Part shown: piece after piece, positions 8,870-13,560 of the stretch
How the letters are laid out: the number at the start of each line of letters is the position of its first letter
How positions within the stretch are numbered: the first letter of the stretch is position 1
From: an uncultured Methanobrevibacter sp.
GTDB taxonomy: Archaea > Methanobacteriota > Methanobacteria > Methanobacteriales > Methanobacteriaceae
Direction: 5' to 3'
NCBI GenBank assembly: GCA_902774685.1
Contig: CACYJH010000001.1
Span: 1-64,000 of the forward strand
Length of the DNA stretch: 64,000 nt
The notes under the pieces: generated by a model
Seen by the model: the letters and a program-made list of their open reading frames with translations, nothing else
Told to the model about the DNA's origin: nothing
Database searches by the model: none
Translations under genes and position numbers: made by a program

Positions 8870-9508
8870 ATGTCATTTAGTTTAGAAAGCATCGGAATAA
8901 AGGCTGGAGGAAAATATGAAACAATCTACACCACCATGAACAAGGCAGGTGAAATGGATGCAGCACCAATTGGACTCAAATGTGTAGATGATTATGCAGT
9001 TCTTGCCCGTATTTTTGAAGGAAGCAAAACATTGGAAAACATTAAGGAAACAGGAATTTTTGTTGTGAACATAACAAGTGATCCAAGTGTATTTGCACGT
9101 TCATTATATGGCAATCTAGATCCTGACGAGTTTGTTAAGGATGATGACATAGCATATATGAAAAATGCTGACGCTTACTTCATTGCACTTGTAAAATCAA
9201 TTGAAGACAAGGAAATAGGAAAGGACCATGTGAATGATGGAGCTAAATTCAGCATAGTCAATGCAGAATCCATAAAGATCATAATCAATAAGCCTGGCAC
9301 AAAAGCTCTAAATAGGGGAATATTCGCATTTTTGGAATCTCTTGTCGACTATTCAAGAATTGATATAATCGATGATGAGAAAAAGGACGAATACATCAAG
9401 AAATTCAAGGAAAATGAGAGACTAATTGATGTAGTTGCAGAGGATGATGTGAAAGAGGCAATGAAAGACTTAAAGGAAAGGCTGATTGAAAAAGGAGTTG
9501 AGTTATAA
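8870..9508 (+). CDS. DUF447 family protein (flavin-reductase-like split barrel)
   Basis: A 212-residue protein of the archaeal DUF447 family. The N-terminal half (GIKAGGKYETIYTTMN, DAAPIGLKC, then the NITSDPSVFARSLYGNL segment) matches the FMN-binding split-barrel fold, and the C-terminal half is helical and charged. The family is common in methanogens, with no assigned reaction; flavin binding is a family-level expectation. ATG 8870 is preceded by AGGAGATAAAAT. The gene is divergent from atwA. Confidence 0.8.
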   Translation: MSFSLESIGIKAGGKYETIYTTMNKAGEMDAAPIGLKCVDDYAVLARIFEGSKTLENIKETGIFVVNITSDPSVFARSLYGNLDPDEFVKDDDIAYMKNADAYFIALVKSIEDKEIGKDHVNDGAKFSIVNAESIKIIINKPGTKALNRGIFAFLESLVDYSRIDIIDDEKKDEYIKKFKENERLIDVVAEDDVKEAMKDLKERLIEKGVEL

Positions 9509-9590
9509 TTTAATTTCTATAATTGAAAAATTACGAAATTAAAGCAATTTTGAACTTTAAATAAACTTAATTCTTTCATAATGGATAAGA

Positions 9591-9600
9591 TTTATATAAT
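9591..9600 (+). promoter_or_regulatory. TATA box for the candidate antitoxin RNA
   Basis: TTTATATAAT is a near-ideal archaeal TATA box. About 25 bases from its centre lies 9620, where the structured block with two hairpins begins. No open reading frame begins there, which fits a promoter for an RNA gene. Confidence 0.55.
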
Positions 9601-9619
9601 ATAAATCTTAAAATAAGTT

Positions 9620-9725
9620 TAAGGGTTTACACCTTTATGTAAACTCCGTTTAGTTGAAAGATAGGGATGTTAATGAATCCATTATTTGGATTCAATTAAC
9701 ATTTAATACTATTTTTAATATTTTT
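9620..9725 (+). ncRNA. candidate antitoxin small RNA with antisense to a toxin leader
   Basis: About 100 bases that read as an independent RNA gene. Hairpin 1 pairs GTTTAC (9625-9630) with GTAAAC (9639-9644). Hairpin 2 pairs GTTAATGAATCC (9669-9680) with GGATTCAATTAAC (9688-9700), with one bulge, and is followed by T-rich sequence (9711-9730), which suits an archaeal terminator. Between them, bases 9644-9661 read CTCCG then TTTAGTTGAAAGA. These are complementary to CGGAG (9966-9970, the Shine-Dalgarno of the downstream 24-residue peptide gene) and TCTTTCAACTAAA (9951-9963, its leader), with only two unpaired bases between the blocks. The hairpin 1 loop also holds CACCT, complementary to AGGTG of the same site. 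Both elements are on the same strand, so action would be in trans. RNA existence and role are inferred. Confidence 0.55.
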
Positions 9726-9892
9726 TATTTGGAAACTATTTTCAAAAAAGTTTTTATCCTATTTTTATTATAAAAGAATTTTTTTAATCTATTTTTTGCA
9801 TTTTCAGATAAATTTCCTAAAAAGACTATTTTTTACAAAATAAAAGCAATATAATAATTAAAATGAAATTAAAGACCATAAAATTAGTTAAA

Positions 9893-9901
9893 CATATAAA
9901 T
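9893..9901 (+). promoter_or_regulatory. TATA box for the 24-residue peptide gene
   Basis: CATATAAAT-type box about 28 bases before 9922, where a structured leader (AAGGTTTCGATATC) begins. This gives an expected 5' untranslated region of about 55 bases. Confidence 0.5.
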
Positions 9902-9978
9902 AATTAATTTAAACTAATTATTAAGGTTTCGATATCTTAAAACAATCACTTCTTTCAACTAAAACCGGAGGTGAAATT

Positions 9979-10053
9979 ATGGTCGTGACTTTGAGACAAG
10001 TTTTGCTTGTTATCCTTTTCATAATTCAAATGATCTTAATCTTCATTGAATAA
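9979..10053 (+). CDS. 24-residue hydrophobic peptide, candidate type I toxin
   Basis: ATG is preceded by CGGAGGTGAAATT, the strongest Shine-Dalgarno in this stretch. The 24-residue product opens MVVTLRQVLL, continues with almost only Ile, Leu, Val, Phe and Met, and ends IFIE, so it is a single membrane helix with a short charged segment near the N-terminus and a terminal Glu. This is the shape of bacterial type I toxins and small membrane peptides such as Ibs, TisB and the Fst group; no homology is claimed. The predicted mRNA (about 9922-10080) folds so that GTGAAATTA (9971-9979) is paired with TAGTTTCAC (10058-10066), and TTCGATATC (9928-9936) with GATAGTCGAA (10067-10076). The upstream RNA at 9620-9725 could pair with its leader. 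Alternatives are a small regulatory membrane peptide or a leader peptide, but cofH downstream is on the opposite strand. Confidence 0.6.
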   Translation: MVVTLRQVLLVILFIIQMILIFIE

Positions 10054-10180
10054 ACTGTAGTTTCACGATAGTCGAATTTTACAAAAAGTTTATAGGTTTG
10101 ATTTGACCTTAGATATCCTTTCATCCTTATTAAAAATAGATAAAATTAGTTAAAAAATAGAAAAAATAAAAAAAGTAAAC

Positions 10181-11302
10181 TTAGGATTCAATTGGATAGA
10201 ATTCAGTATAAGTAGAGTTTCTCTCTATTGGAACTCTTCCCAAGTCATTGACTAATTTAGTTAGGTCTCTGATGCTTGCATTTACACCATCTGGAGCTCC
10301 AGAAGCTGCAGACAATTCATCTCCCCCTAATGTGCCACCTAAGTCATTTGCACCAGCTAAAAGTGAAACTTGAGCAAATCTGAAACCCATCTTTACCCAA
10401 GAGACTTGAATGTTAGGAATGATGTCCCTAAACATCAATCTAGCAACTGCATATAGCTTTAAATCTTGAGTACCTGTAGCTCCCAAATCCCTCTGACCTT
10501 CAAGGAATATAGGTGAGTGCTCATGCATGAATGTCATTGGAATGAATTCGTTGAATCCACCAGTATCGAGTTGAATTTGTCTAAGAATATCCAAGTGTTC
10601 AACTCTCTCTTCAAGAGTCTCTACATGACCATACATCATTGTTGCAGAACCTGTAATTCCTGCTTCCTGAGCTATCTTTACTACATCAATCCATTCTTGA
10701 GTTGATACCTTTTTAGGACAGATTATCTCTCTGGATCGGTCAGTCAATATTTCAGCAGCAGTTCCAGGCAAAGTGTCTAAACCTGCTTTTTTCAATATTT
10801 TAAATGCCTCATCTACAGGTATTTCACTATTTAATGCAGCATCTCTAATCATGGTAGGTGAAAATCCATGGATTTCAACTTTAGGGTAATGAGACTTGAG
10901 CAATTTCAAAAGATGCTCATAATATTCTATTGTTGCATCTTCAAGCACTCCACCCATCAAGGTGAATTCACGAGCACCGTCACGATAACCACCTTCAGCC
11001 TTATTCAAAATGCCTTCATCATCCAATAGGTACGCTTCAGGATCATCTGGATCCTTACCGAAAGCACAGAATCCACAGCGTACATGGCAGATGTTTGTGA
11101 AGTTGATGTTACAGTTATTGATGAAAGTGACCTTATCACCAACAATCTCTTCACGTACCGCATCTGCTGTTGCCAAAAGCGGATAGATTTCTGAACCCTT
11201 TAGGTTCATCAAGTAATTCCCATCTTCAACTGAGATAGGCTCATCAAAAGAGCTATCTAATATTTTCTTAGTTTTGGATGCCACATTAATTCTATTATAC
11301 AT
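10181..11302 (-). CDS. cofH: FO synthase subunit 2 (5-amino-6-uracil transferase), radical SAM
   Basis: A 373-residue radical SAM enzyme. The CxxxCxxC cluster motif is CHVRCGFC at about residues 72-79, followed by FTLMGG (the GGE-like SAM motif) and a TIM-barrel body (LPGTAAEIL, MYGHVET). With CofG it makes 7,8-didemethyl-8-hydroxy-5-deazariboflavin, the chromophore of coenzyme F420, from tyrosine and the ribityl-aminouracil. CofG is not in the window. The length is normal. The gene is convergent with the 24-residue peptide gene, and the two share a short AT-rich gap. Confidence 0.92.
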   Translation of the reverse strand: MYNRINVASKTKKILDSSFDEPISVEDGNYLMNLKGSEIYPLLATADAVREEIVGDKVTFINNCNINFTNICHVRCGFCAFGKDPDDPEAYLLDDEGILNKAEGGYRDGAREFTLMGGVLEDATIEYYEHLLKLLKSHYPKVEIHGFSPTMIRDAALNSEIPVDEAFKILKKAGLDTLPGTAAEILTDRSREIICPKKVSTQEWIDVVKIAQEAGITGSATMMYGHVETLEERVEHLDILRQIQLDTGGFNEFIPMTFMHEHSPIFLEGQRDLGATGTQDLKLYAVARLMFRDIIPNIQVSWVKMGFRFAQVSLLAGANDLGGTLGGDELSAASGAPDGVNASIRDLTKLVNDLGRVPIERNSTYTEFYPIES

Positions 11303-13013: not shown

Positions 13014-13220
13014 CTATTTAGCTACCATTACTTCGGTAGATTTGATAATAGCTTTTACTTCATCACCAATAGCTAATTCTAAATCTTCAGCAGATTCTCT
13101 GGTAATTGCAGCGGTGATTAAAGCTGGATCTTCCACTTTAATTTTAATACTAGCCATTACAGCACCTAATTTTACACTTTCAACAGTACCTTTAATTCCG
13201 TTTCTTGCACTAATTTCCAT
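13014..13220 (-). CDS. molbindin-like (TOBE/Mop) molybdate-binding protein, copy 1
   Basis: A 68-residue single-domain Mop protein. It begins MEISARNGIKGTVESVKLG and ends EGDEVKAIIKSTEVMVAK-like (IGDEVKAIIKSTEVMVAK), the standard TOBE sequence in which ARN and the late KSTEVM form the oxyanion site at subunit interfaces. Molbindins store or buffer molybdate or tungstate in the cytoplasm. It lies 51 bases after a paralogue on the same strand; the two share the start and end almost exactly and differ in the middle. Confidence 0.92.
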   Translation of the reverse strand: MEISARNGIKGTVESVKLGAVMASIKIKVEDPALITAAITRESAEDLELAIGDEVKAIIKSTEVMVAK

Positions 13221-13271: not shown

Positions 13272-13478
13272 TTATTTAGCTACCATTACTTCGGTAGATT
13301 TGATAATAGCTTTTACTTCGTCTCCTTCTTTTAAGTCTAATTCTTCTGCAGATTCTCTGGTAATGACTGCAGTGATTACACCAGGTTCGGTAATTTCAAT
13401 TTTGATACTTGCCATCACTTCGCCTAATTTAACATCTGCTACATTTCCTTTTAATCCGTTTCTTGCACTAATTTCCAT
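13272..13478 (-). CDS. molbindin-like (TOBE/Mop) molybdate-binding protein, copy 2
   Basis: A 68-residue Mop protein, paralogous to its downstream neighbour. The start was set at ATG 13478, since ATCGAGGTAATTATT gives a ribosome binding site there and the family begins MEISARNG. A longer frame to 13550 would translate the operator palindrome and is rejected. The predicted promoter (TATA at 13553-13558, start near 13530) is overlapped by an inverted repeat, so this pair is probably repressed as an operon. Confidence 0.92.
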   Translation of the reverse strand: MEISARNGLKGNVADVKLGEVMASIKIEITEPGVITAVITRESAEELDLKEGDEVKAIIKSTEVMVAK

Positions 13479-13509
13479 AATAATTACCTCGATATGAATT
13501 TTTATTTTG

Positions 13510-13532
13510 ATATGCAATTCGAAGTTGCATAT
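13510..13532 (-). promoter_or_regulatory. palindromic operator at the molbindin promoter start
   Basis: ATATGCAA (13510-13517) and TTGCATAT (13525-13532) are perfect inverted arms around the spacer TTCGAAG. The site covers the expected transcription start, 23-25 bases from the TATA on the minus strand. Repressors usually bind there. TCGATATG (13489-13496) and its inverted copy CATATCGA (13616-13623) flank it and may be accessory half-sites. A metal or oxyanion repressor is a guess from context. Confidence 0.55.
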
Positions 13533-13560
13533 ATTATGATTAATCACCATAGTATATAAA

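Follow-up and report, generated by a model that had tools for sequence, protein, structure and literature searches.

Type I toxin-antitoxin systems had previously been described only in Proteobacteria, Firmicutes and Tenericutes, to which a 2025 study adds a candidate from Cyanobacteria (PMC12390103). In zor-orz of Escherichia coli O157:H7, the peptide is 29 aa long and a separate sRNA carries 18 nt complementary to the 5' UTR, with pairing that is locus-specific among the paralogues (PMC3919570) and a pairing site that does not overlap the translation start (PMC4147584). In tisB-istR-1 and shoB-ohsC of E. coli, a separate sRNA gene likewise stands beside the toxin gene and its product pairs with the 5' UTR, over 19 nt in the case of ohsC (PMC4147584, PMC3919570). 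Zor-orz shares with the archaeal family described here the small peptide, the locus-specific pairing between paralogues, the existence of antitoxin-only loci (PMC11264685) and, as predicted for the archaeal side, a separate sRNA. These three systems offer the nearest plan to the archaeal family. However, zor-orz is bacterial, requires RNase III and has divergent genes, as do tisB-istR-1 and shoB-ohsC, whereas the archaeal genes follow one another on a single strand, with either gene first; further, IstR-1 blocks a ribosome standby site and tisB is under SOS control, whereas the predicted archaeal pairing covers the Shine-Dalgarno (SD) sequence. No recognisable homology was found between the archaeal family and the bacterial type I families Hok, Ldr/Fst, TisB, ShoB, Ibs and ZorO.

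The toxin mRNAs of hok-sok and aapA-isoA are closed by pairing between their 5' and 3' ends; the full-length form is inert, and it stays closed until refolded or processed. Joined ends are also predicted for the archaeal mRNA, but in these two bacterial systems, to which no homology was found either, the antitoxin gene overlaps the toxin gene on the other strand and the peptides are longer. An RNA-based toxin-antitoxin module is already present in archaea, namely CreTA (type VIII), first described in haloarchaea; its toxin, however, is itself an RNA and there is no peptide toxin. The antitoxin of CreTA acts through the CRISPR effector, as documented in a bacterial case (PMC10097628).

The locus compared here lies in a stretch of 64,000 nucleotides (the window) from an uncultured Methanobrevibacter sp., a methane-producing gut archaeon, in the gap between a gene ending at 9508 and a minus-strand gene at 10181-11302; all features of the locus are on the plus strand. 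A preliminary description of this DNA had proposed a 24-residue hydrophobic ORF with a strong SD and, upstream of it, a short RNA with a TATA-like box, two hairpins and a T-rich end, and both are present as described and conserved in relatives. The putative toxin ORF with its stop codon (9979-10053) encodes MVVTLRQVLLVILFIIQMILIFIE and follows the SD GGAGGTG (9967-9973), for which all copies have GGAGG or GGGGG. The predicted mRNA, with approximate ends at 9923-10128, is preceded by a TATA-like box, TATAAATA (9895-9902), that is conserved in class 1 (the sequence classes are given below).

The upstream TATA-like box, TTTATATAA (9591-9599), has similar counterparts in class 1-2 relatives, and the predicted start of the candidate antitoxin RNA falls near 9621, about 25 nt past its centre and some 303 nt before the mRNA start on the same strand. 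This candidate (9621-9725, ends approximate) has a predicted fold far more stable than that of shuffled sequence (z -4.75), consisting of hairpin 1 (9623-9646), whose stem shows covariation, and hairpin 2 (approximately 9664-9703), followed by the T-rich end; compensatory changes occur at four pairs of hairpin 2 in classes 1-2. Between the hairpins lies the antisense stretch, CTCCG plus TTTAGTTGAAAGA (9644-9661), which is predicted to be unpaired there in classes 1-2. A 12-nt perfect palindrome, TAAGATTTATAT-A-ATATAAATCTTA (9586-9610), is centred on the TATA-like box of this RNA; relatives keep an imperfect version, and the palindrome may be an operator.

Elsewhere around the locus, the gene at 8870-9508, which we take to be DUF447-like, has no ORF seen beside the same site in three other genomes (G009, G010 and G015). 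Two adjacent, similar small genes on the minus strand (13014-13220 and 13272-13550) resemble, in our own reading, molbindins with a Mop domain.

The locus is one member of a family. Searching at the DNA level turned up the element in four related genomes and, on contig C30, a second copy in the genome of the window itself. The mRNA profile R1 recovered 20 true copies in eight genomes of one genus, Methanobrevibacter, a count that may miss divergent classes in other genomes; the mRNA is supported by profile R3 as well as R1. A class-wide search of 152 genomes with R1 returned the same 20 copies and no credible one elsewhere. The genome of the window has four mRNA copies, and the covariance model R2 places the sRNA in 16 loci. 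R1 matches in another genus (g16; L039 and L040) were discarded as lying inside a larger coding sequence, and weak R3 matches in G011, G012, G013 and the genome of the window look like chance; G012 lacks the family. A short ORF with a strong SD in G012 (L085, C1:77716-77814), outside the family, is preceded by a CTCC that could pair with the SD in the same RNA. No match to known protein or RNA families in Pfam, NCBIfam or Rfam was found for the putative toxin, peptides this short being hard to match, or for the RNA; nor was there any match pointing to a phage, plasmid or viral origin.

The peptides fall into five sequence classes, represented by MVVTLRQVLLVILFIIQMILIFIE (class 1, the window), MEFNFKQFLLLLILFIQMILLFVE (class 2), MEISLRTILLLLEVLIKLFLIFIQ (class 3), MEWSLKFFLLLLSAIISFILIFIE and MELTLKFLLLLISAIISFVLIFLE (class 4) and MELDYKLVFDFFIEVIKIILLFLA (class 5). 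The 24-codon hydrophobic frame behind a strong SD is kept in 19 of the 20 copies; the exception is a class 2 copy (L036:1501-1701) whose frame is broken by one extra A, reflecting either toxin inactivation or an assembly error. In two class 3 copies (L051 and L038, mRNA at 1501-1697), the frame begins with TTG, not ATG, behind a strong SD. Within classes 1 and 2, change is greater at synonymous than at replacement sites (for example, pS 0.25 and pN 0.00 between the window and G016), and between classes pS is about 1.6 to 2.3 times pN; pS is above pN in most comparisons, the class 4 pair and one of the class 3 pairs showing no clear excess. The copies are spread over about eight chromosomal sites. 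By our own reading of the neighbouring genes, the window copy adjoins a cofH/cofG-like gene, class 2 copies sit between Nudix and lysA-like genes, and classes 5, 4 and 3 stand beside xseA-like, CBS-domain and M24 peptidase-like genes, respectively.

The preliminary description had also noted complementarity between the short RNA and the mRNA leader including the SD, and this was found as described. The target, including the start of the SD, spans 9951-9970 and comprises a perfect 13-nt complement (9649-9661 with 9951-9963; TTTAGTTGAAAGA/TCTTTCAACTAAA, sRNA/mRNA) plus CTCCG with CGGAG. The duplex has an energy of -32.6 kcal/mol; however, 0.2% of dinucleotide shuffles reach as low a value, and therefore the pairing in the window alone exceeds chance only moderately and is suggestive. 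The decisive evidence comes from the relatives. In all complete copies, the antisense stretch is complementary to the mRNA encoded at the same locus, and changes in one are mirrored in the other, for example as TTATCTGAAATGGTA/TACCATTTCAGATAA in class 2 and ATTGGGAAATTG/CAATTTCCCAAT in G009, so that compensating changes in the homologues preserve the pairing.

Ranked by duplex energy, the cognate mRNA came first for all 12 distinct sRNAs (12/12). The cognate energies sum to -349.7 kcal/mol, whereas permuted assignments average -183.3; in 100,000 permutations no sum was as low, although the loci are related and relatedness lies outside the permutation model. When the SD was cut away the result held, but one sRNA then preferred a sister copy by 0.1 kcal/mol. 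Since complementarity served to locate the sRNAs in classes 3-5, their energies are partly selected. A second run of the test was therefore confined to six loci in which homology had identified the sRNA, and the true assignment was the best of 720. In class 4, complementarity alone is barely above background in a 3-kb search, and the assignment of the sRNA rests on position and a shared hairpin. Among the four copies in the genome of the window, cognate duplexes range from -27 to -35 kcal/mol and non-cognate ones from -8 to -19 kcal/mol.

The mRNA is also predicted to fold on itself. A helix joins its ends (9931-9937 with 10111-10117), with compensatory changes in three of seven pairs across 19 sequences, a signal that is destroyed when one arm is slid, and of 13 copies whose predicted folds were examined, 12 have most of the SD in base pairs. 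Such a closed mRNA would resemble inert bacterial toxin mRNAs such as hok and aapA.

Gene order differs among the classes. In classes 1-2, the sRNA lies upstream and its start precedes that of the mRNA by 234-307 nt; in classes 3-5 a complementarity search places it downstream, with the antisense stretch 265-292 nt past the start of the mRNA. In both arrangements sRNA and mRNA share a strand. The sRNA of classes 3-5 is preceded by a TATA-like box and followed by a conserved hairpin, GTTATTTGAATTC..GAATTCA..TAACA, and a T-rich end. Three loci have the antitoxin only, and two of them keep remnants of the toxin transcript without the ORF: in G010, the class 1 sRNA stays at the cofH site with the toxin ORF lost and the mRNA tail left, and in G006, the 3' tail comes directly after the mRNA TATA region. 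The third, on contig C88 of G016, is an sRNA without a toxin. Conversely, no toxin-only locus occurs among the 19 mRNA copies with flank available, the 20th being at a contig end. Such a bias is expected of a type I system, which can shed its toxin alone but not its antitoxin; it has also been reported for orz in E. coli and explained by the toxicity of an unprotected toxin (PMC11264685). The multiple copies, both gene orders, the antitoxin-only relics and the helix closing the mRNA make the observation larger than was first noted.

These results bear on how the pair is read. Chance complementarity, or an inverted repeat at the DNA level beside a meaningless short ORF, might be entertained from the window, where the region is AT-rich and 0.2% of shuffles pair equally well, but it is refuted by the homologues, in which 12 distinct pairs co-vary, the frame is conserved and homologous elements occur at other chromosomal sites, leaving this explanation with practically no probability. 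Slightly more, yet still very little, weight can be given to a cis-acting leader, in which the hairpin element would form the 5' portion of a single long mRNA and fold onto the SD as an attenuator or sensor. The two elements of the window are indeed complementary and close together on one strand; however, the element lies downstream of the ORF in classes 3-5, which argues against a cis leader and led us to reject an attenuator. Further, each element has its own TATA-like box, the sRNA is followed by a terminator-like hairpin and T-rich stretch, and solitary elements persist without an ORF. The boxes, the hairpin and the existence of two gene orders favour a candidate antitoxin with a transcript of its own.

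A more serious alternative, which we nevertheless consider unlikely, is that the sRNA controls, by the same pairing, a useful or signalling membrane peptide that is not a toxin, since pairing, frame and folds would look alike for any sRNA-regulated peptide. Against this stand the presence of antitoxin-only but not toxin-only loci, the occurrence, within one genome, of several copies that are mutually specific and lie at different sites, the patchy distribution, and the double locking of the message by antisense RNA and by its own closed fold. We hold it quite likely that this archaeal locus is a type I toxin-antitoxin pair, as the preliminary description had proposed; the compensating changes and the conserved frame support that reading of the pair, while toxicity is what we infer for the peptide.

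We propose that two separate transcripts are made from the same strand. The longer would encode the 24-residue hydrophobic, probably membrane-spanning peptide, and would fold on itself, a short helix bringing its two ends together and most of the ribosome-binding region being paired. The shorter, of about 100 nt, would expose the stretch between its two hairpins and pair with the mRNA leader, covering the SD so that the ribosome could not bind; judging from the position of the pairing, the antitoxin may repress translation or trigger decay of the toxin mRNA. When the antitoxin RNA is low, the peptide would be made and act at the membrane, presumably as a toxin.

Taken together, it is likely that this is the first type I family in Archaea, unrelated, as far as detected, to the bacterial ones, with tandem genes of which either may come first, multiple, mutually specific copies on a chromosome and antitoxin-only relics. 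No archaeal type I system was found in the literature searched, which took in few of the subscription journals. If the reading is true, a multi-copy family of methanogens carries the type I principle into a second domain of life, in which membrane lipids, RNA chaperones and RNases differ from the bacterial ones. The natural compensatory variants would then lend themselves directly to testing how sRNA and mRNA recognise each other in Archaea, and solitary antitoxins would show how such modules get lost.
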